From: Alphaproteobacteria bacterium SS10
GTDB lineage: Bacteria > Pseudomonadota > Alphaproteobacteria > TMED2
Assembly: GCA_019192455.1 (NCBI GenBank)
Contig: JAHCML010000003.1
Location: 1,189,848-1,253,847 of the forward strand
Length of the DNA: 64,000 nucleotides
Direction: 5' to 3'
Shown piece by piece: positions 28,907-43,535 of this stretch. The notes under the pieces are model-generated. The model was not told the origin of the DNA and did not search any database. It saw only the letters and a program-made list of their open reading frames with translations. A program made the position numbers and the translations under genes. Numbering within the stretch: the first letter of the stretch is position 1; each line of letters begins with the position of its first letter.

Positions 28907-30130
28907 TTAGACTTCAACCAGCACATCGGTCCACAGCTCAGCTGGGTCCGGCTCAGGGCTGGTTTGTGCGAAGTCGGCGGACTCATTCACGATCTCTTTG
29001 ATCTCTTTATCGATCGCCTTGATGTCGTCCTCTTTGACCTTTTGCTTCAGCAGCAAGTCACGCAGACGCTCGATCGGATCGCGCTGTTGGCGATACTCGC
29101 TCACCTCTTCCTTGGTTCGGTACTTCGCCGGATCAGACATCGAGTGACCACGATAGCGATAGGTCTGCGCCTCCAGGATCATCGGCCCGGTTGAGCGGAC
29201 ATGGTCGACACATTTCCGCGCAGCATCCTGCATGGCGAGAACATCCATCCCGTCGGCCTGCATACCCGGGATGCCATAAGCCTCACCACGACGGTAAAGC
29301 TCACCGGCTGAGGCCCGCTCTTGGCTGGTGCCCATGCCGTACTTGTTATTCTCAATAACGATCAGTGCTGGCAGCTTCCAAAGTGCGGCCATGTTCAGGG
29401 TCTCATAAACCTGGCCCTGGTTCACCGCACCATCACCGAGGTAGCAGACGTTGATGCCATCATCCTCGAGATACTTGTGCGCGAAGGCGAGACCGGCACC
29501 GATTGGCACCTGAGCGCCAACGATCCCGTGACCGCCATAGAACTTCTTCTCACGGCTGAACATGTGCATCGAGCCACCCTTACCGCGAGAGTAGCCACCC
29601 TCACGTCCGGTCAGTTCAGCCATCACACCTTTCGGGTCCATGTCGCACGCCAGCATATGGCCGTGGTCACGGTAGCTGGTGATCACGCTGTCGGTATCAT
29701 TCAGCTGTGACTGGATGCCAACCACGACGGCTTCTTGACCGATATACAGGTGGCAGAAACCGCCAATCAAACCCATGCCGTAAAGCTGTCCCGCCTTCTC
29801 TTCAAAGCGGCGAATAAGCAGCATGTCCTTGTAAAGCTTCAGCAGCTCATCATTGCTGCGCTTCCGTGTCGTCGAACGGCTACGTGATGGTGCCTTCTTG
29901 GCGGTCGCTGCTGCATTCTTGCGCGTCGAGCTGGCACGCCGCGTTGTCTTAGCTGCTGGCTTTCTCGCTGCTGCTGACTTTGCGGCCGCAGGCTTCGCCG
30001 CTGCCGATTTCGCAGGTGCCTTACGGGCTGTCGATTTTGCTGCGGTTGATTTTGACGCTGTCGTCTTGGTCGAGCGTGATTTGGTCGTGCTCGCCTTTTT
30101 CGCGGATGCGGTGCTGCTACGCGTTGCCAT
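28907..30130 (-). CDS. pdhA: pyruvate dehydrogenase E1 alpha with long basic N-terminal tail
   Basis: Alpha subunit of the thiamine-diphosphate E1 component. From about residue 92 the fold is canonical: LLIRRFEEKAGQLYGMG, YRDHGHMLACDMDP, GKGGSMHMF, and the ThDP-binding GDGAVNQGQVYETLN...IENN. Residues 1-91 are almost only Ala, Lys, Ser, Thr, Arg and Pro, with AAK/AKS/KPAA repeats like histone H1 tails; short versions occur in other alphaproteobacteria but this one is long. The ATG at 30130 has GGAGG 5 bases ahead, so the tail is translated. The upstream gap holds an FNR-type box and a palindrome, suggesting oxygen-linked control. Confidence 0.96.
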   Translation of the reverse strand: MATRSSTASAKKASTTKSRSTKTTASKSTAAKSTARKAPAKSAAAKPAAAKSAAARKPAAKTTRRASSTRKNAAATAKKAPSRSRSTTRKRSNDELLKLYKDMLLIRRFEEKAGQLYGMGLIGGFCHLYIGQEAVVVGIQSQLNDTDSVITSYRDHGHMLACDMDPKGVMAELTGREGGYSRGKGGSMHMFSREKKFYGGHGIVGAQVPIGAGLAFAHKYLEDDGINVCYLGDGAVNQGQVYETLNMAALWKLPALIVIENNKYGMGTSQERASAGELYRRGEAYGIPGMQADGMDVLAMQDAARKCVDHVRSTGPMILEAQTYRYRGHSMSDPAKYRTKEEVSEYRQQRDPIERLRDLLLKQKVKEDDIKAIDKEIKEIVNESADFAQTSPEPDPAELWTDVLVEV

Positions 30131-30255
30131 GAAGTCCTCCCGAAACGGACTGGCTATTTTGAAGACATGCCGATGAGGTTCGGCTTTAGATTATTGGCGG
30201 TAGAGGTACGTGAAATACCGTTTTAGGGCAAACCGTTTTCACCCCTTAGGCGCTG

Positions 30256-30270
30256 CAACATTGCATGTTG
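30256..30270. promoter_or_regulatory. palindromic operator candidate upstream of pdhA
   Basis: CAACATTGCATGTTG: perfect 6-base arms with a 3-base centre, 126 bases ahead of pdhA and 14 bases from the FNR-type box. It does not match the E. coli PdhR site. A regulator is not identified. Confidence 0.4.
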
Positions 30271-30284
30271 GAACGTAAGAAACA

Positions 30285-30298
30285 TTGATGTGAATCAA
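30285..30298. promoter_or_regulatory. FNR/FixK-type box upstream of pdhA
   Basis: TTGATGTGAATCAA is an exact match to the TTGAT-N4-ATCAA consensus of the Crp/Fnr regulators FNR, Anr and FixK. It lies 155 bases before the pdhA start in the 242-base gap after ftsB. This suggests oxygen or redox control of pyruvate dehydrogenase; whether it activates or represses depends on the unmapped transcription start. Confidence 0.6.
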
Positions 30299-30372
30299 CT
30301 GGTTCTATGATGTTGAGACAGTGCGTAAGGAAATTTCGTCGGCCCGCGCAAAAGCTTGATGCAAGGATGCAA

Positions 30373-30714
30373 TCAATCTGCGCCAACGATAACGCGGTCG
30401 CTTGGCCCGGCATAATGAAGCACGCTTCGAATGCGCTCTTCTAATAGGTCAGGGTCCAAACTCTCATCCCTAAGCAGGGCAGCACGATGGGCTAATGCGG
30501 TGCGTTCAGCGCGCAATTCCTCACGCTCAATATCCAGCGCGGCGACATCCGTTTGTAGGTCCACCATAGCGCTGAAACCACTGTCACCCTGGATGGCGTG
30601 ATAACCGAAATAACCAATCAAGGCGGATCCGATGATCGTCTGCAGCATGACACGCAGACGCCCCCGCCAACGGGTTGGCGGTGCCGGGTCGTGATGGTGT
30701 GGATGCGTGCTCAT
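30373..30714 (-). CDS. ftsB: septum formation initiator FtsB/DivIC-like protein
   Basis: Short bitopic membrane protein of the divisome (FtsQLB). 113 residues: a His-rich cytoplasmic start (THPHHHDP), one membrane segment at about 24-42 (MLQTIIGSALIGYFGYHAI), a coiled coil (LQTDVAALDIEREELRAERTA) and the conserved end LDPDLLEERIRSVLHYA. The place between eno and pdhA is the standard one in this class. Slightly longer N-terminus than E. coli FtsB. Confidence 0.88.
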   Translation of the reverse strand: MSTHPHHHDPAPPTRWRGRLRVMLQTIIGSALIGYFGYHAIQGDSGFSAMVDLQTDVAALDIEREELRAERTALAHRAALLRDESLDPDLLEERIRSVLHYAGPSDRVIVGAD

Positions 30715-30797
30715 GACCCCATGGAATCATGCCATCGGCCAGGCGTCAACGCGCGCGCGAATCAGGCATGCGAATCGGCTTCATTTGGATCGAAATG

Positions 30798-32160
<1,363 letters not shown>

Positions 32161-32213
32161 GCAGCACCGGGGCGATGCTAAACTATTGGTTTGCTATGCA
32201 GTTGGTTTGACCT

Positions 32214-33308
32214 TTGGCCAATCGTACAAGCTTCAGAAATCTCTCAAAGTTCAGGGACCGTGCCGCCACCGTCATCAAAGACGTTGAGCGACCCAGTATG
32301 GGTGCCGGTCTGCGTGAGCTTGGTAAGCGTCTTGGCTATGCCTTTAGCCTTCTATTCACCGAGAAGGAACTTATCGTCTTCGCGCTGGCGCAATGGCTGG
32401 TGATTGCGGGCTTTTACCTGATCTGGGTTCTGGGCGTCGGCTTCATGCCGCAAGAGATGTTTGAGGAGGCAACGAAGGAAGGAACCTCACCAGGTGAGAT
32501 CCTGTTCACCCTCTGGTGCATCTTCTGCATCTTAGCTGCCACGCTGCCACTAGGGATTTTGACTGGCTGCATGGTGGCGGTGCACTTCTTAAGGCGACAT
32601 ACCGGGCGGTCAACAATCCCCCAATGCCTTGGCCTTGTCTGGCGTCGCCCCTTTGCGATCTGGTTCTACAGTTTTGCCGATGGCTATATCACCGCTGGTC
32701 GGATCCTGGATCGTTTGCCGAAAAGTGATGATGACACCACCCCTGCTCAGCGGGCGATTGCTGAAATAGCCTACTATGCCTGGAAGGTTGCCTCCGCTGG
32801 CATGATGCCGAGCCTGGTTCTTGGTAACTCCCTACTCGCTAGCTTTAAGCACTCACTCCGCCTCATCCGGGACAATGGTTATGAGGTGATGGCCCTTCGC
32901 GCTGGATACTCTGCTCTGTGTTGGATCGTCGGCATTTTGGCCTATGGGGGTGCGCTTGTGATCTTTCTTTACGCTGATCCGATTGCCGGTGAATTGGATG
33001 ACGTCAGTGAATTTGTGCATGCGTTAGTGATTGCCGGGGTGCCGTTGATCATTGCCGCGGGCATCGTTCAGGTATTCATCCGCCCGTTCTATTTGATCGC
33101 GCTTTGCGATGTGTATTCCGACTATCTTGAGAAGAATGACCTGAAGCCAAGGCTGGAGCGTAAGCCGCTCGGCATCGCAGAAACTCTCGTGGCGGGTCTG
33201 ACCATTGGTGCCCTATTCGGTGGCATCGTGATCTTCGCTGATCAGCTGGGCCTAGAGATCATCACAACGACCATCCGGGATACCGTCGGCAGCCTACAGG
33301 ATAGGTAG
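32214..33308 (+). CDS. multi-pass inner-membrane protein, unknown function
   Basis: I do not recognise a named family with certainty; the pattern of a basic N-terminus, then a 'tekelivfalaqw' style first helix, recalls DUF6159-like or EI24-like membrane proteins, which is only a hint. About six hydrophobic segments are visible: near 55-75, 98-122, 200-215, 235-260, 275-298 and 328-350. A charged loop with DDDTTPAQRAIAEIAYYAWK lies between. The longest frame starts with TTG at 32214; an ATG at 32298 is an alternative, and neither has a strong ribosome site. With the next gene it forms a two-gene plus-strand unit set between eno and kdsA, which are usually close together. Confidence 0.75.
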   Translation: MANRTSFRNLSKFRDRAATVIKDVERPSMGAGLRELGKRLGYAFSLLFTEKELIVFALAQWLVIAGFYLIWVLGVGFMPQEMFEEATKEGTSPGEILFTLWCIFCILAATLPLGILTGCMVAVHFLRRHTGRSTIPQCLGLVWRRPFAIWFYSFADGYITAGRILDRLPKSDDDTTPAQRAIAEIAYYAWKVASAGMMPSLVLGNSLLASFKHSLRLIRDNGYEVMALRAGYSALCWIVGILAYGGALVIFLYADPIAGELDDVSEFVHALVIAGVPLIIAAGIVQVFIRPFYLIALCDVYSDYLEKNDLKPRLERKPLGIAETLVAGLTIGALFGGIVIFADQLGLEIITTTIRDTVGSLQDR

Positions 33309-33388
33309 TCGAAATCACCCATTTGGGCTTTCAAAAGTTGGGCGCAGGGTACCGCTTACACGTCAGCTCGCTTTTCTCCCAACCCGCT

Positions 33389-34651
33389 ATGACACAGCCG
33401 CCCCGAACATCGGAAACTGCCGCCCTGCTGGGCGAACTCCGCCGTGATGGCTATGGGCAAAGCGCCCATGACGCCACGATTGCGAGTGTCGCGAGTGCGC
33501 CTGCTGGTCTGTCGCTTCGTGGTGTTATCAGCCATGCTAGCTGGACCAATCCAAATGGCGAGCCCATCACCCTGAGCGCCAAAGATAGCTATTTACACGA
33601 CCTGCCCCGGGCCCAAGCGCGGGCCATTGTGGCGGTTCAGGATGTGGTGGCCAAACGCCCCCTGGGTCGAGCGCTTTTGAAGACGGCCCGCAGCGGCGGC
33701 GTAGACTTTGACTTTGCCCGCCTGCAGGCCGATGCCATCGCTAGCTATGATCACGGCATCCGACGGCAATCATTTAACAGCAGCGATCCCCTGCCCGCTG
33801 ACCCCGATGTGTTCATTGGTGCCGCGGCAAACTCTACCGCGCATGAACTGACCCATTGCCAGCAGCTAGCCAAACTGGGCGAACAGCTGCGTCAGCTTCC
33901 AGACAGTGTTGATGACCTAACCATCCAATTGGACCATCGCATTTTGGCCAATCGCCATTTGGAAGCTGCTGCCAATGCGGTCGCGATCCAGATTGCGTTT
34001 GATAATAAGCAAGCCGGTGATGATCGGATGTGGTCGGCGATGGAACGGTCCGGCGGTGACCAGCATCAGAAGATCGCCTTCGAAGCGGCTGTGATGGCCG
34101 ACCCCGCTGCGGCCCATGACGGCCGGGCTCGACGCGCTGCCCATGACGCGTTCTTCGACCTTACTGGCTATATCGGCCAATACGATGATCAGCTGATCAA
34201 GATGACAGCCGAGGCTCTGATTAGGATCGCTGAGCGACAGTTTATTCCGCAGGACGATATGGGTGATCGGATGCGGGTTCGATCCCTAAGTCGTTGGGAA
34301 CATTCGGTTGATGAGTTGGCGATGCTAGGTGATATGCCCGACGGGGTTAATCACCTGACCCTGCCAGGCCAACTCACTTTGAATGATGAGAAATATGCGG
34401 GCCCAACAACGGAGCAGCGGGCCGGTCAGGTTATGTATCTCATCGGCCTGACTGAGCAGATGCGCATTCAAGAGATCGTCACACCCGACGCGCTAGAGCG
34501 ATTTCAGAATGTTGAAAGCCGCACGGAAGCCGCAGACTTACTGTCAAAGTTCGCGCCGGTCAGGCACTCAAGCGTCGATCTGAAGCGGTGGCGGAGCAAG
34601 GCTGAGCCGGAAGCACCAGAACCGGCAATGGTGCCAGCACCAGCTGCCTGA
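33389..34651 (+). CDS. putative zinc metallopeptidase (HELTH motif), unknown family
   Basis: About 420 residues, not confidently named; it may belong to a DUF of putative metallopeptidases (DUF6782-like). The key feature is STAHELTHCQQ at about residues 148-158, an HExxH zinc signature, followed about 50 residues later by RHLEAAANAVAIQIAFD, where a Glu could be the third zinc ligand. No signal peptide or membrane segment is visible, so it is probably cytosolic. The tail is Pro/Ala/Glu-rich (AEPEAPEPAMVPAPA). I chose the ATG at 33389; the frame runs to a TTG at 33323. It follows the membrane protein gene by about 80 bases on the same strand and converges with kdsA (2-base gap). Confidence 0.75.
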   Translation: MTQPPRTSETAALLGELRRDGYGQSAHDATIASVASAPAGLSLRGVISHASWTNPNGEPITLSAKDSYLHDLPRAQARAIVAVQDVVAKRPLGRALLKTARSGGVDFDFARLQADAIASYDHGIRRQSFNSSDPLPADPDVFIGAAANSTAHELTHCQQLAKLGEQLRQLPDSVDDLTIQLDHRILANRHLEAAANAVAIQIAFDNKQAGDDRMWSAMERSGGDQHQKIAFEAAVMADPAAAHDGRARRAAHDAFFDLTGYIGQYDDQLIKMTAEALIRIAERQFIPQDDMGDRMRVRSLSRWEHSVDELAMLGDMPDGVNHLTLPGQLTLNDEKYAGPTTEQRAGQVMYLIGLTEQMRIQEIVTPDALERFQNVESRTEAADLLSKFAPVRHSSVDLKRWRSKAEPEAPEPAMVPAPAA

Positions 34652-34653
34652 GC

Positions 34654-35486
34654 TTACGCTGCTTTAACGACGCGATCCAAATCTTGAAGCTTTGAGAGCA
34701 ACGGCTCCATTTCATCCAATGGCACCATATTAGGCCCATCGGATGGTGCATTATCGGGATCCTGGTGCGTCTCAACAAACAGCGCACCAACACCAACAGC
34801 CACCGCCGCACGGGACAGCACCGGTACAAACTCACGTTGGCCGCCAGAGGACGTGCCTTTACCACCTGGCTGCTGAACCGAATGGGTTGCGTCAAAGACA
34901 ACCGGGTAGCCCGTTTCAGCCATGGTTGGGAGCGAGCGCATATCCGAGACTAGGGTATTGTAGCCAAAGCTGGCGCCCCGCTCGGTCAGCAGGATGTTGT
35001 GGTTGCCGGTGGCTGCGATTTTGGCAGCCACATTGCCCATATCCCAAGGGGCCAGAAACTGCCCCTTCTTCACATTGATCACGGCACCGGTCTCACCAGC
35101 TGCGAGCAACAGGTCGGTCTGCCGGCACAGGAAGGCTGGGATTTGCATCACATCAACAACAGCAGCGACAGGCTCACATTGCTCTGGCCCGTGAATGTCA
35201 GTCAGCACCGGCACCTCAAGCTCTTTACGAAGCTCTGCGAGGATCGGTAGGCCTTTATCAAGGCCAACACCACGCTTACCCGACACCGAGGTGCGGTTCG
35301 CCTTATCGAAGGACGTCTTATAGATGAACGGAATGCCGAGACGCGCCGTTAGCTCTTTCAGCGCGCCCGCCATGTCGAAGGCATGATCCCGGCTCTCAAG
35401 CTGGCATGGGCCAGCAATAAGCGTAAATGGACGATCATTGGCGATCTCAATATCGCCGACTTTAACAACGCGTTGCTGTACGGGCA

Positions 35487-35487
<1 letters not shown>
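34654..35487 (-). CDS. kdsA: 3-deoxy-8-phosphooctulonate synthase
   Basis: Joins phosphoenolpyruvate and arabinose 5-phosphate to make KDO 8-phosphate for the lipopolysaccharide inner core. Seen: [55 protein letters not shown]-type segment and [12 protein letters not shown]. 277 residues. Start overlaps the pyrG stop by one base (TAATG). It fits with the lpx genes farther along as LPS supply. Confidence 0.97.
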
Positions 35488-37133
<1,646 letters not shown>

Positions 37134-37163
37134 CTACGGGGCGTTCGGGCTTAAATCTGGTAC

Positions 37164-37550
37164 TTACTCTGAGAGTGGGACTTCAGGGCCGGCATCGACC
37201 GCTGGTTCAGTGTCCTCTGGAGGCTCGATGGCTGCTGGGTCATCGGTGCGAATGTCATTGAACACCTCCGCACCTTCAATTTGGTCCAGGAAGTCGGTGT
37301 CCTGACCATCAGAGGCGATGATCGCGAGCAGTAGGCTGGTTGCCATAAAGGAGGCCGCGAGAATTGCGGTCGTGCGGGTCAGGAAGTTGGCTGTGCCGCG
37401 TGCGGACATCATGCCGCCAAAACCTGCACCGGCCGAGCTACCACCGCCGCCGCCGATACCAAGGCCGCCACCTTCTGAGCGCTGCAACAGGATGACCCCG
37501 ATGAGGGCCACGGCGAGCAGCAAATGAACGACAAGCAATACGGTTTCCAT
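37164..37550 (-). CDS. secG: preprotein translocase subunit SecG
   Basis: Small membrane subunit of the SecYEG channel. 128 residues: first helix METVLLVVHLLLAVALIGVIL, a glycine-rich loop (GGGLGIGGGGGSSAGAGFGG), conserved RGTANFLTRTTAILA leading into the second helix, and an acidic Pro/Glu-rich tail longer than in E. coli, which is usual in alphaproteobacteria. A GC hairpin (37565-37582) lies just ahead of its ribosome site; its effect is unknown. Confidence 0.93.
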   Translation of the reverse strand: METVLLVVHLLLAVALIGVILLQRSEGGGLGIGGGGGSSAGAGFGGMMSARGTANFLTRTTAILAASFMATSLLLAIIASDGQDTDFLDQIEGAEVFNDIRTDDPAAIEPPEDTEPAVDAGPEVPLSE

Positions 37551-37696
37551 AACAACACCTGACGGGCCCTTCTTCGTGGGCCGTTTTACATAGAGACGCT
37601 TTGTAAGGCTGAACCGACAAAATAGTGATTTCGTCGACAGACGCCAGCGATGTTTTTGCCCTGCATCAAATCAGCTCAAAAACACCGCGCGATTAG

Positions 37697-38464
37697 CTAG
37701 CTGGAAGCAACCCCAGCCGCCGCTGTGAGGATGCCCAAAAAGTCCTCTGCCTTCAGGCTGGCACCACCAACCAAGGCACCACCAACACCATTTAGCGGCA
37801 GGATTTCAGAAGCATTCCCAGGCTTAACCGACCCACCATAAAGAATGCGTGGCGCAGCTTTATCGCTGGTCGCACCCGCAGCGGCCTGAGCAATCACAGT
37901 GTGGATCGCTTCGATGTCATCATTTGATGGCGTGCGACCGGTGCCGATGGCCCAAACCGGCTCATAAGCAAGGATCACATCAGCCGATGTCAGGTCGGTT
38001 GGCATCGAACCCGCGATTTGTTTCTTCACAACAGCCTCGGCCTCACCGGCATCCCGTTCCGCTTCTGTCTCACCAATGCAGATGATTGGGGTTAGACCAG
38101 CAGCCAATGCGGCCTCAGCCTGCGCGCACACCATTTCATCAGTTTCGCCATGATCGGTTCTGCGCTCTGAGTGGCCAACGATTGCGTAGCTGGCACCGGC
38201 ATCCGCAATCATGGCCGCCGCAACATCGCCGGTGTGCGCGCCCGTTTCAGCCGTATGGCAGGTCTGGGACCCAACGCCGATACCGCTGCCAGCGGCTGCC
38301 TTCACGACCGTGGTTAGATGCAGGCTGGTTGGGCACAGCACGACCTTCACCTGATCGTGATTAAAGCCATGCTGAATAGCCTGGGTCAGCTGGTCGGCCA
38401 TGGCCATCGTGCCATGCATCTTCCAGTTACCGGCGATAAGAAAAGCGGGGTTGGCGGACGCCAT
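37697..38464 (-). CDS. tpiA: triose-phosphate isomerase
   Basis: Interconverts glyceraldehyde 3-phosphate and dihydroxyacetone phosphate. Seen in 255 residues: AGNWKMHG (catalytic Lys), VGHSERR (catalytic His), AYEPVWAIGTG (catalytic Glu), ILYGGSVKPGNA phosphate loop and VGGASLK. The ATG at 38464 has GAGG 8 bases before it, so I preferred it to the longer frame up to 38548. Divergent from ppiD. Confidence 0.97.
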   Translation of the reverse strand: MASANPAFLIAGNWKMHGTMAMADQLTQAIQHGFNHDQVKVVLCPTSLHLTTVVKAAAGSGIGVGSQTCHTAETGAHTGDVAAAMIADAGASYAIVGHSERRTDHGETDEMVCAQAEAALAAGLTPIICIGETEAERDAGEAEAVVKKQIAGSMPTDLTSADVILAYEPVWAIGTGRTPSNDDIEAIHTVIAQAAAGATSDKAAPRILYGGSVKPGNASEILPLNGVGGALVGGASLKAEDFLGILTAAAGVASS

Positions 38465-38669
38465 TTGAACTACCTCTAACGAACGTGCATCGGCACGGGA
38501 TGAAAAAAGTCGAAAACTCGCTGATTCCGGCAGGCTGAGCCGTTGCAAGCGTGGATATGCGCCCCTATTATCAGGTCAGCCGCATCGGGTCCAGGGGGAG
38601 CCGAGTGAGCGGCGGATTTTTCGAGCCCAATCGAGCCCACTTTTAGCCAGAGTTTGAGACCAAGACGCC

Positions 38670-40595
38670 ATGCGTAAGTTGATGGAAAATCGGATCGGCC
38701 GAATCTTTGTGATCGTGCTGTTCAGCCTTATGGGTCTCAGCATGCTCAGCTTCGGTGTCACCGATTTCAGTATGGTTGGTAACAGCAATGCGGCGTTGGT
38801 GGGCGATTACAAGATCACGGCAGCAGAGCTTGATCAGACCTTCAACTTCGATTTGGCGGAAGAGCAGCGGAACACCGGTCAGTTTGTAAATCGGGTTCAA
38901 GCGCTGACTGAAGGCCGATTGGAAGAGACCCTCGCCCGCCTCATTCTTCGCCGCCAAATGCAGCAGGCTGCCACCGACTCGGAAGTGCTGATAACTGAAG
39001 AGGCCTTGGCCACCATCATCCGTAACAATGACGGTTTCCAGGATGAGGAAGGCAACTTTGATCGTGAGCGTTTTAACTTCATCGTCTACCAGGCGGGCCT
39101 AACGCCCGAAGCCTATGCCCAGCAGGTTAAGGCCAACATGACCCGTGGCCAGATGAGCCAGGCTGTCATCAGCGGTGTTCAAGCACCCAACCTGATGCTG
39201 GACGTGCTCACCGAATTTCAGGGCCGTACCCGGGATGTAAGCTACGTCACCCTGGGTGAGGCTGATGTACCGGTCGAGGGTGAGCCAACCGAAGAAGAGT
39301 TAAATGTTCTGTATGAACAGAACCTGGATGCGTTCCGCACGCCAGAGCGTCGGACCGTCAGCATCCTCAACTTTGGTCCCGCTGATGTTGCTGACCGTGT
39401 GACCGTCACGGATGAGCAGTTGCAGGCCGAATACAATCGCCAGATCGATAGCTTCCGCGTCGATGAACGGCGCCGGTTTGAACAAGCCCTGCTCGACAGT
39501 GCTGAACAGGCTGAACTTCTGCTAGCCGCCGCCACTGAGGGCAGCAGCCTTAGCGATATTGTCGCCGCCGCCTTCCCTGAGAATGCGCCCTTTGTCTCCG
39601 ATGTCGATTGGGCAGAGCGCGAAACGCTGCTGCCAGAGATGGCTGATGTCATCTTTGAAATGCAGGTTGGTGAAATCTCAGAACCGATCGAAACGGATCT
39701 GGGCCTCCACATTGTTCGCCTTACCGGCAGTCAAGAAGCAGGCACCCGCCCCCTGGATGATGTTCGTGAGGCGTTGACCGAGCAGGTTCAGCGGCGCAAT
39801 GCAGCAGACGCCCTCTTCGACTTCTCCGCTGAGGTTGATCAGGCGCTCATTGACGAGCAGCCCTTTGAAGAGATTGCGGAGACCCTAAAGATCAATCTGA
39901 TCACTTTAGATGGCCTCGCCGAGGACGCGACCCTGCCGGTGGGCACCGCAACCCCAGCCTTTGGCCTGTCCATTGTTGCTGAGGAAGCATTCTACCTTGA
40001 GCCTGGGGAAGTTAGCCCACTGTTTGAGAGCAGTAATGGTGGCTACCTCGCCGTTCGCCTCGACAGCGTTACACCGGCCAATACACAGCCAAAGGAAGAG
40101 GTTCAGACCCAACTGACCGGCCTTTGGGAGCTGATTGAGCGCCGCCGTGTGGCTGCTGATCTGGCCGCCAAACTTGATGAAGCAGCGCGTGACGGCGCCG
40201 AATGGAATGATGCGCTGACTGAGCTTGGCCTCGACCCAGAGCAGGTCACCGTGCAACAGGTCCAACAGTTGAGCCGAGCCGACCGCAACACCGCTATTGC
40301 CCCGGCCATTTTGCGTGGGATCTTTGACCTGACTGAACCGGGTGACACTGACCGTCTTCGAATTGGTGACCGCTGGGTGGTTATCCGCATCGAGGGCGTG
40401 GCCAGTGAGGCTGTTGATCCAGTGCAGATTCAGGAGATGCGGGTTGATCTCGCAGAAACCCTGTCACTTGACCTGCTATCCCAATATCAGCGGGTTTTGG
40501 ATCAGCGCTATCCGGCACGGATCAATTACAATGTGCTGAACAGCTTCCACACGCCAGAGTCCGGTGGCTCGATCCCTGCCCATGGCGGTTATTGA
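38670..40595 (+). CDS. ppiD: peptidyl-prolyl isomerase PpiD-like (SurA_N / parvulin)
   Basis: Membrane-anchored periplasmic folding factor. 641 residues: an N-terminal membrane helix (GRIFVIVLFSLMGLSMLSFGV), a SurA-N-like chaperone region, a central parvulin-type domain (about 220-370, with MQVGEISEPIETDLGLHIVRL) and a C-terminal chaperone region. The isomerase signature is recognisable though the catalytic set was not checked residue by residue. trpE follows on the same strand. The ppiD-trpE neighbourhood is common in this class. Confidence 0.9.
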   Translation: MRKLMENRIGRIFVIVLFSLMGLSMLSFGVTDFSMVGNSNAALVGDYKITAAELDQTFNFDLAEEQRNTGQFVNRVQALTEGRLEETLARLILRRQMQQAATDSEVLITEEALATIIRNNDGFQDEEGNFDRERFNFIVYQAGLTPEAYAQQVKANMTRGQMSQAVISGVQAPNLMLDVLTEFQGRTRDVSYVTLGEADVPVEGEPTEEELNVLYEQNLDAFRTPERRTVSILNFGPADVADRVTVTDEQLQAEYNRQIDSFRVDERRRFEQALLDSAEQAELLLAAATEGSSLSDIVAAAFPENAPFVSDVDWAERETLLPEMADVIFEMQVGEISEPIETDLGLHIVRLTGSQEAGTRPLDDVREALTEQVQRRNAADALFDFSAEVDQALIDEQPFEEIAETLKINLITLDGLAEDATLPVGTATPAFGLSIVAEEAFYLEPGEVSPLFESSNGGYLAVRLDSVTPANTQPKEEVQTQLTGLWELIERRRVAADLAAKLDEAARDGAEWNDALTELGLDPEQVTVQQVQQLSRADRNTAIAPAILRGIFDLTEPGDTDRLRIGDRWVVIRIEGVASEAVDPVQIQEMRVDLAETLSLDLLSQYQRVLDQRYPARINYNVLNSFHTPESGGSIPAHGGY

Positions 40596-40696
40596 TCGCA
40601 ATCTGATCCGAATTGGCGTTTAACAACGCGCGCTGGGTTGGCGGCTATGCTGCCTACCCGTCATTTTTCTCTGCCTTAGGCTGGAAGCCCCATCTC

Positions 40697-42208
40697 GTGT
40701 CGATCCAACCAGACTTTGATACCGTCGCCTCGCAATATCAGCCTGATGGGCCTGCGACGCTGCTCTGGACCAGGATGATTGCCGATCTCGAGACACCGGT
40801 ATCTGCGTTCCTGAAACTGGCCGATGGCGAGCCCCATTGCTGTCTCTTTGAGTCTGTTGAGGGCGGGGCCAATATTGGCCGCTACTCAATCATTGCGCTG
40901 CGCCCCGATCTGATCTGGCGTGCCCGGGATCTAAAGCCAGAGATCAATCGCGGCCCCCATCTCGGTGAGACGAAGTTTGACGCCGATGAACGGCCCGCGC
41001 TTGAGAGCTTGCGTGTCATCCTGGCCGAAAGCCGGATTGAGCCACCGCCAGGCCTGCCGCCGATGACCGCTGGCGGTCTGTTTGGCTATCTTGGCTATGA
41101 CATGGTGCGGGTGGTTGAGGATATTCCGAATGATAATCCCGACCCGCTGAACCTGGATGACGCGGTGATGATGCGGCCAACGCTGATTGCTGTGTTCGAC
41201 AATATCGATCGCACCATCACTATCGCGACACCCTTGCGGCCATCCACCGATGTGCCCGCCCGCGCCGCCTATGATGCCGCTGCCGAGCGACTGCAAACAG
41301 CACTGAAACTGCTGCGCCGATCACCACCGGCGCCCAACCCAATCATGGGTAACGAAACCGGCGAAGTGGAGCCTGTCTCAAATACCGGGCAGGACGCTTA
41401 CAAGGCCGCCGTTGATAAGGCGAAGGAATACATCCTGGCCGGTGATGCCTTCCAGATCGTGCCATCTCAACGGTTCTCTGCCCCCTTCCCACTCCCGCCC
41501 TTTGATCTGTACCGCGCACTCCGCCGGTTAAACCCATCACCGTTTCTATTCTATGTACGGTTGGGTGAGCTAAGCATTGTTGGATCAAGCCCTGAGATCT
41601 TGGTTCGGGTTCGTGATGGCAAGGTCACGATCCGCCCACTAGCAGGCACACGCCCACGGGGTGGGACACCGAAAGAGGACAAGGCCCTGGCCGATGACCT
41701 CCTGGCGGATCCGAAGGAGCTATCGGAGCATCTGATGCTGCTTGATCTTGGGCGCAACGACGTTGGCAGGGTTGCCGAAATCGGCAGTGTTCAGGTCACC
41801 GAGCAGATGGTGATTGAGTACTACTCTCACGTCATGCACATCGTCTCGAATGTTGAGGGCACGCTGCGTAGTGACCTCGATCCGTTCGATGCCCTAATGG
41901 CCGGCTTCCCAGCCGGTACGGTTAGCGGTGCCCCAAAGGTTCGAGCGATGGAGATCATCGACGAACTTGAGGTTGCCCGGCGCGGTATCTATGCCGGATG
42001 CGTTGGCTATTTCGGTGCCGATGGCAGCATGGATAATTGTATCGCCCTCCGCACCGCTGTGCTGAAGAATGGCATGATGCACGTCCAGGCTGGCGCTGGT
42101 GTGGTTGCGGATAGCGATCCGCAGAAAGAGTATGATGAGACGGTGAACAAGGCCCGCGCCCTGTTCCGGGCCGCTGATGAAGCGCTCTCCATCGCTCGTA
42201 ACGCTTAA
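40697..42208 (+). CDS. trpE: anthranilate synthase component I
   Basis: First committed enzyme of tryptophan synthesis, converting chorismate to anthranilate with TrpG. In about 503 residues: ADLETPVSAFLKL (tryptophan feedback-site region), SIIALRPDLIWRA, ILAGDAFQIVPSQRF, GSSPEILVRV, IRPLAGTRPRG, DLGRNDVGRVA and GAPKVRAMEIIDELE. I chose the GTG at 40697 (GGAAG 9 bases ahead); upstream codons to the TTG at 40613 do not resemble the family. No tryptophan-rich leader peptide is visible. The gene is separated from trpG by a minus-strand deacetylase gene. Confidence 0.95.
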   Translation: MSIQPDFDTVASQYQPDGPATLLWTRMIADLETPVSAFLKLADGEPHCCLFESVEGGANIGRYSIIALRPDLIWRARDLKPEINRGPHLGETKFDADERPALESLRVILAESRIEPPPGLPPMTAGGLFGYLGYDMVRVVEDIPNDNPDPLNLDDAVMMRPTLIAVFDNIDRTITIATPLRPSTDVPARAAYDAAAERLQTALKLLRRSPPAPNPIMGNETGEVEPVSNTGQDAYKAAVDKAKEYILAGDAFQIVPSQRFSAPFPLPPFDLYRALRRLNPSPFLFYVRLGELSIVGSSPEILVRVRDGKVTIRPLAGTRPRGGTPKEDKALADDLLADPKELSEHLMLLDLGRNDVGRVAEIGSVQVTEQMVIEYYSHVMHIVSNVEGTLRSDLDPFDALMAGFPAGTVSGAPKVRAMEIIDELEVARRGIYAGCVGYFGADGSMDNCIALRTAVLKNGMMHVQAGAGVVADSDPQKEYDETVNKARALFRAADEALSIARNA

Positions 42209-42216
42209 CGCGTCAG

Positions 42217-43392
42217 CTATTCGGCCCGCGCCGCAACCTGTTCTTCAGTCTTAGCTGAACGCATCGCCGCGATTGTTGAGATCGGTACCAATTGGAAACC
42301 ACGCTCTTCCAGTGTCGGCAGCCACTCATCCAGGGCTTCCAAGGTTTCCCGGTGCGGATGACCAATACCGACCGCTGTACCCACATGGCGGGCAACCGCT
42401 TCTAACTGGCGAAGGCTACGTCGGATGGCTGCGGGCTCGATCTCATGATCTAGAAATACACTGCGGCGCGCTGCTGGCATGCCGAGGCTTTCGGCAAGAT
42501 CGCCAGCCACACTCTTGGGCGAGGTTTGGCTATCGAGGAACATCAGCCCCCGGCGCTTCAGCTCGGTAAGCACCGTCATCATCGATTGGGTATCACTCGT
42601 GAAGCGGCTACCCATATGGTTATTGATCCCGACATAACCGTCGAACTTGCCGAGCGCCTGGCGCAACCGGCGAAGCACCTCATCCTTAGGCAAATCAACG
42701 GTAAGGGCCCGTGGGCCAGGATCCTGTTTGGCATCCAGGGGCTGCATCGGTACATGGACTAACAGCTCATGGCCCAGGCGTCGGGCCCGGTTGGTTTGCT
42801 GCTCCAGATTGCCGGCATATGGCAGGAACGCGAGCGTCATCGGCGCTGGCAGCTCCATGGTCCGCTCGGTCCTGGTTCTACTCAAGCCCAGATCATCGAT
42901 GACAATCGCAATTTTGGGGCGATTACTATCAAGGGCGACCGGCACTGCATATCGCTGCCAGGCAGGTGTCAGCTCAACCGCCGGCGGCGTAATCACCGCA
43001 ACATCTAGCTTCTCAGCAGGGACAGCGGCTGCTGGCTTGGCCTCAACCGGCGCCGGGATCACCGGTTGAACCGATGGTGCCTCAACTGTCGCCACTGACA
43101 ATGGCTCTGGCTTAGCAGCCGGAGGTTCGGGATCCACTGCTAACGCAACCTCTTCGGGTGAGCTGCTAGGTGTTTCAACCGGTGCTGCGGTAACAGAAAG
43201 TGGGCGGAGGTCGATGATCGGTACAACGACACGTTTAGCGTCCCGGTCGCTGGCGATATCCCGTGCCTGACTGCCGTTGCCCATAACCAATGCACCGGTT
43301 GCCACAACGGCAACGCCAACCATCAGCATCAACGTCAAACGACGCCAGGACAGGTTGATGGATGTTGCCTCAGGCAGGTGCAAGGGGGCCAT
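42217..43392 (-). CDS. divergent polysaccharide deacetylase (YibQ/DUF610)
   Basis: Predicted periplasmic NodB-fold protein. The start region has one membrane segment (SWRRLTLMLMVGVAVVATGALVMG), then a Pro/Ala/Glu-rich spacer of about 100 residues, then the YibQ domain: KIAIVIDDLGLS, LAFLPYA, ELLVHVPMQPLD, YVGINNHMGSRFTSD, LMFLDSQTS and VGIGHPHRETLEAL. The ATG at 43392 has GAAGAG ahead; an ATG at 43416 is also in frame. About 391 residues. It lies on the minus strand between trpE and trpG, so it interrupts the trp genes. Confidence 0.88.
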   Translation of the reverse strand: MAPLHLPEATSINLSWRRLTLMLMVGVAVVATGALVMGNGSQARDIASDRDAKRVVVPIIDLRPLSVTAAPVETPSSSPEEVALAVDPEPPAAKPEPLSVATVEAPSVQPVIPAPVEAKPAAAVPAEKLDVAVITPPAVELTPAWQRYAVPVALDSNRPKIAIVIDDLGLSRTRTERTMELPAPMTLAFLPYAGNLEQQTNRARRLGHELLVHVPMQPLDAKQDPGPRALTVDLPKDEVLRRLRQALGKFDGYVGINNHMGSRFTSDTQSMMTVLTELKRRGLMFLDSQTSPKSVAGDLAESLGMPAARRSVFLDHEIEPAAIRRSLRQLEAVARHVGTAVGIGHPHRETLEALDEWLPTLEERGFQLVPISTIAAMRSAKTEEQVAARAE

Positions 43393-43535
43393 AGCGGGCT
43401 CTTCAGCCAAATACATACAGATATGTGAGGGTCTTACGGGATCAGAGGCCGGTCAAGCCTGACTCGCCACGACTCGATCCAGGGGCACCAACGCGATTTC
43501 GCATGTCTGCCCCAGCTTTTGGTCAACAGCTTCCC

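Follow-up and report, generated by a model that had tools for sequence, protein, structure and literature searches.

Gene B of this locus adds a new and divergent member to DUF6782, an uncharacterised though already known family of protease-like proteins, and stands beside an orphan gene, A, in the window, by which we mean the whole stretch of 64,000 nucleotides that was analysed. The reading that we favour, with a probability of about 0.68, is that B is a divergent, probably cytoplasmic DUF6782 paralogue of the gluzincin type without the small upstream gene (here called P) found next to many of its relatives, that A is a rare and unrelated gene, and that the two do not make up a conserved module. 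The features of the locus are the following.

32072, minus strand: start codon of eno, one flank of the A/B pair.
32214-33308, plus strand: gene A, open reading frame of 364 aa with a TTG start; orphan multi-pass membrane protein.
33392-34651, plus strand: gene B, 419 aa when read from its ATG (33392); DUF6782 putative metallopeptidase.
33593-34396, plus strand: region 68-335 of B, predicted by AlphaFold2 on alignment A5 as a zincin-like core (pLDDT 83.6, pTM 0.86).
33842-33856, plus strand: HELTH motif of B, with His151, Glu152 and His155 (419-aa form); predicted active-site helix 138-165.
33962-33964, plus strand: Glu191 of RHLEAAANAVAIQ, probable third metal ligand; predicted helix 173-207.
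34181-34183, plus strand: Tyr264, invariant in alignments A1, A3 and A5; possible catalytic Tyr.
34654-35487, minus strand: kdsA, the other flank of the A/B pair.

An earlier note on this DNA, made from the letters, had described two plus-strand genes set between kdsA and eno, and both open reading frames were found as claimed; the cluster of pyrG, kdsA, eno, ftsB and pdhA to which it referred lies together here, with all of its genes on the minus strand. The frame of B is open from a TTG at 33323 (33323-34651, plus strand, 442 aa), and 83 bases separate the stop of A from the ATG of B at 33392. The G+C content is 0.55 in A and 0.59 in B, against 0.58 in eno and 0.57 in kdsA; given this resemblance to the neighbouring genes, a recent acquisition of A and B was rejected. 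The assembly also includes a separate contig, C16 (13,653 bp), that repeats window positions 29821-43444 with 100% identity. It is probably an assembly redundancy, and because it was treated as such it was left out of all counts; that it reflects a true duplication of this part of the window is possible.

The family assignment of B comes from the Pfam model PF20573 (DUF6782, "putative metallopeptidase"), which it matches with an E value of 8.4e-15 and 55.1 bits against a gathering cut-off of 27, in line with the putative peptidase proposed from its HELTH motif; no NCBIfam model matches it. We compared 14 members of the family in one alignment (A1) and, in another (A3, 23 sequences), B and 22 of its relatives, all from named metagenome bins. 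Invariance extends to H, E, H, Q, E, A, A and Y in A1, and to His151, Glu152, His155, Gln158, Glu191, Ala192, Ala194, Gly209 and Tyr264, in the numbering of B, in A3. The features of DUF6782, namely HExxH, an invariant Gln, a later Glu and a Tyr, are all present in B, as is, by sequence only, the gluzincin signature of HExxH and a third Glu. The glutamate of RHLEAAANAVAIQ that had been picked out as a plausible third ligand is this conserved Glu191, invariant in both A1 and A3. Because B lies over the Pfam cut-off and these residues are invariant, the combination of HELTH and a later Glu is more than chance. Around the third ligand the family usually reads EADA, with the Asp in at least 90% of the rows of A3; B has Ala there (EAAA), as does its closest relative in the genome (C5:14869, see below), and the Glu itself is kept in B. 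Since the Asp is common yet not invariant, it does not define DUF6782.

In the mechanism that we propose, His151, His155 and Glu191 of B would bind zinc, Glu152 would activate a water molecule that cuts the peptide bond, and Tyr264 might assist catalysis; zinc binding and catalysis by B are what we infer from these positions. By eye, B has no apparent signal peptide, in agreement with the description of a protein without a secretion signal, and it is probably cytoplasmic. All that a phmmer search with B alone brought up were LRR proteins with E values from 0.008 upwards, which were taken as noise. In a profile search of PDB sequences, the matches at E up to 1 were limited to IrrE (0.0048), an orthologue of it (0.014) and a single protease from snake venom (0.9), and no Pfam model of the M78 family (IrrE/ImmA) matches B at E<=1. 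Literature searches under DUF6782, PF20573 or wider terms, in which subscription papers are poorly covered, found no paper.

Structure prediction is consistent with this picture. Gluzincins have a fold of two helices and three strands, followed by the HExxH helix and then the Glu helix. The model of full-length B (AlphaFold2, 23 sequences) has a mean pLDDT of 70.3 with a confident core, and in the core model two helices come first, followed by three strands, the long helix that carries HELTH and the long helix of Glu191, by which the fold of B is predicted to be zincin-like. The structure prediction that the earlier note had suggested as a check thus places HELTH and Glu191 on two helices of a zincin-like core. 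Foldseek gave no significant match for B among solved structures (best E 0.45, to selecase; none below 0.001) or in a viral structure library. With VIA-align the solved structures nearest to the domain model were metalloproteases of zincin type, with selecase first (Z 6.2, 75 residues, 2.6 A), and then anthrax lethal factor (6.2), 3c37 (5.6), Wss1 (5.3) and IrrE (4.8); Z is below 8 throughout, hence no match of the domain model is significant.

The full-length model produced a different first row in VIA-align, the HExxH oxygenase domain of ChlB (8s5f; Z 8.2, 170 residues, 3.6 A), followed by zincins at Z 6.0 and below. B might accordingly be read as an iron enzyme akin to the alpha-ketoglutarate-dependent HExxH oxygenases of RiPP biosynthesis, and this lead of 8s5f over the next row (8.2 against 6.0) is joined by a precedent: such HExxH enzymes were originally annotated as metallopeptidases (PMC12636437). 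The identity to 8s5f is, however, 9%, and there is no sequence-level match to its chain at E<=1. Moreover, no NCBIfam model of HExxH oxygenases matches B or six other members of the family, and 8s5f is not listed for the better domain model, an absence from the VIA lists that is no counter-evidence in itself. We therefore regard an oxygenase as very improbable, and retain the putative peptidase of DUF6782 as our reading of B.

The genome that carries the window is rich in members of this family. PF20573 is matched over its cut-off at 14 places, or 13 when the redundant C16 is set aside, and nine of these 13 genes lie in one array (C5:14869-34040, corresponding to L055:14869 to L056:14040), interspersed with other genes; several members of the array have an apparent signal peptide, as judged by eye. 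Four related-looking genes of 315-339 aa (L056:9814-15142) are interleaved with the DUF6782 genes of the array, and perhaps encode beta-solenoid surface proteins, one of them having weak Bactofilin/FapA matches. In a maximum likelihood tree of 36 domains, with 12 of the 13 members from this genome (the truncated C5:25324 was omitted), B is sister to the first gene of the array with a support of 100/99 and on a long stem, and an unusual amino-acid composition is flagged for B.

C5:14869-16170: sister of B by tree and BLASTP, first gene of the nine-gene DUF6782 array.

The two proteins are 32-35% identical, and the BLASTP alignment (32% over 349 columns) extends beyond the Pfam domain. Tree and alignment together mark B as an old in-genome paralogue of the gene that opens the array.

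In four of the 13 paralogues of this genome the first His of HExxH is replaced by Glu, so members of DUF6782 need not be enzymes; these four copies, which lie in the array, are apparent pseudo-enzymes, to judge from their residues. Such copies, and the change of EADA to EAAA in B, could be taken to mean that B too is non-catalytic, and acts as a decoy, an inhibitor or a binding protein. Yet B retains every one of the invariant positions H, E, H, Q, E, A, A and Y, and we consider this unlikely; the catalytic reading is the one that we carry forward.

The family is large and has been little studied. In our sample of the class, a DUF6782 match at E<=1e-3 was found in 27 of 385 genomes (that of the window included), 19 of which exceed the PF20573 cut-off, and a few families show expansions; in the phylum sample the number is 7 of 398. 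Named relatives belong to bins of Alphaproteobacteria from the rumen and elsewhere, and to Rhodospirillales bacterium SZUA-500.

Many DUF6782 genes are directly preceded by a gene of family P, of about 200 aa, for which Pfam gave no convincing model match. Each of the three P genes of the genome lies just ahead of a DUF6782 gene, the coordinates differing by 10, 116 and -3, and a search of the same genome with alignment A6 found no P genes besides these three.

L055:14161-14859, L058:8684-9319 and L059:10761-11402: the P genes of this genome, each upstream of a DUF6782 gene.

P upstream of DUF6782 was also observed at L103, L107, L097, L100, L098, L079, L040, L033 and L034, and the two genes are often spaced by 10-20 bases or overlap slightly. 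Of 267 genomes of the class, 19 gave a match to P. A DUF6782 gene is adjacent in 10 of the 30 P loci listed, with other neighbours in the rest; among these 10, P is downstream in one and two share a stretch of one contig. P is therefore a recurrent and not an exclusive neighbour, and the idea of P as a strict partner of DUF6782 was rejected, as P is also found away from it. The sister of B has P upstream, whereas B is without it, and no P was detected among the 98 open reading frames of the window even at E<=10.

One may speculate that DUF6782 and P constitute an undescribed two-gene system, in which P would guide or restrain a DUF6782 protease, and which would have been duplicated repeatedly in several alphaproteobacterial lineages. 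The array in the window's genome, into which the system would have spread, would then include probable decoys in its histidine-less copies, and B would have left P to come under A. Taken as a whole, this scheme is doubtful. In the preferred reading, B is an old paralogue of the gene that heads the array, lacks P at its own locus, and lies downstream of A in the same direction, perhaps as part of one transcript.

Gene A is a rare membrane protein unrelated to B. It has about five strong hydrophobic segments, in line with its description as a multi-pass membrane protein, and belongs to no Pfam or NCBIfam family; searched together with three of its relatives against Pfam, it came close to no cut-off. 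The relatives of A are 31-35% identical to it and align from its residue 1, and the alignment of five sequences has many invariant positions, so A represents a genuine protein family. Matches at E<=0.01 occur in 11 of the 385 class genomes; full-length A is present only in the window's genome and in G090 (E 6.9e-69, 35% identity), the matches in the other nine (short stretches, E 5e-4 to 1e-2) being rejected as noise. In the phylum sample A was found in one genome of 398, that of the window, and within the order of G090 in 5 of 43. In G090 the relative of A lies divergent from a gene of 407 aa of no known family (L073:9718-10941).

A and B had been proposed to work as a membrane/protease pair, in which A would anchor B, supply it with substrate or control it. 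The two genes are on the same strand, 83 bases apart, and a terminator-like site is absent from the gap, so that co-transcription, and hence some functional link, is possible; A and B may thus be co-transcribed. Furthermore, each of the five genomes in the order of G090 that carry A gives a DUF6782 match as well. At the base rate of that order (30 of 43 genomes at E<=0.01), however, five of five is expected by chance with a probability of 0.148, or about 0.15, and 25 of the 30 genomes with DUF6782 are without A, so the co-occurrence check proposed for the pair shows the two occurring independently. Four of the five A loci of this order are readable (12.0, 12.1, 17.0 and 5.3 kb), the fifth being at a contig end. 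No DUF6782 gene lies beside A in any of the four, and tblastn found no eno, kdsA, ftsB or pyrG there. Independent occurrence elsewhere was the circumstance that the earlier note had itself set against its pair, and since A lies away from DUF6782 in 4/4 readable loci, the pair fails by that rule. In addition, it is P, not A, that stands beside the sister of B. A functional pair is, in our estimate, quite unlikely. Among the genomes examined, in which the order of the window is represented by the window's genome alone, A and B are neighbours in this one only, and they do not form a conserved module.

The proposed comparison of the eno-kdsA junction in relatives gave a mixed answer. In ten genomes chosen for having DUF6782, kdsA abuts eno in 5/10; in 3/10 one or two other small genes lie between them, and in 2/10 kdsA is not within the 1.5-kb flank. 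With a direct junction in only five of ten relatives, an insert at this place is unremarkable.

An origin of A and B from phages, plasmids or defence systems was rejected on database searches. Neither gene matches plasmids or PHROG, A has no match in viral contigs, and PADLOC assigned no family to the four proteins searched. The paralogue at L009 has no match in phages and plasmids; in PHROG, the same paralogue (E 8e-9) and a rumen member (E 9e-8) match phrog_87, a "metallo-protease", thus a distant phage relation of the DUF6782 family is possible. Viral contigs encode short HELRH proteins (L110:1467-1853 and L111:4983-5318), whose genes neighbour genes resembling phage structural or packaging genes.

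These results remove a tempting, unsupported membrane/protease module from the window, and direct attention to a family that is strongly expanded in a few alphaproteobacterial lineages (metagenome bins from the rumen and elsewhere), that includes tandem copies of inactive appearance and that has a recurrent partner gene. If a function were worked out for the pair of P and DUF6782, many genes could be annotated together in genomes of about 2 Mb.

Compared with the rest of DUF6782, B shares the profile match, HExxH, the later Glu and the invariant Tyr, and differs in its low identity (13-23% to members in A3 and A5), a C-terminal extension, EAAA in place of EADA and the lack of an upstream P gene. 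With IrrE/PprI and ImmA (M78) it shares a weak profile match around HExxH (that to IrrE, E 0.0048), unaccompanied by a match to an M78 Pfam model. Relative to the ChlB HExxH oxygenases, the top structural row of the full-length model (Z 8.2) is set against proteases retrieved by the domain model and the want of a family-model match. Finally, the minigluzincins (selecase/jannalysin; Wss1) have a core order like that of B, with a best domain match of Z 6.2 and no significant sequence or Foldseek match, a core to which B adds several C-terminal helices.
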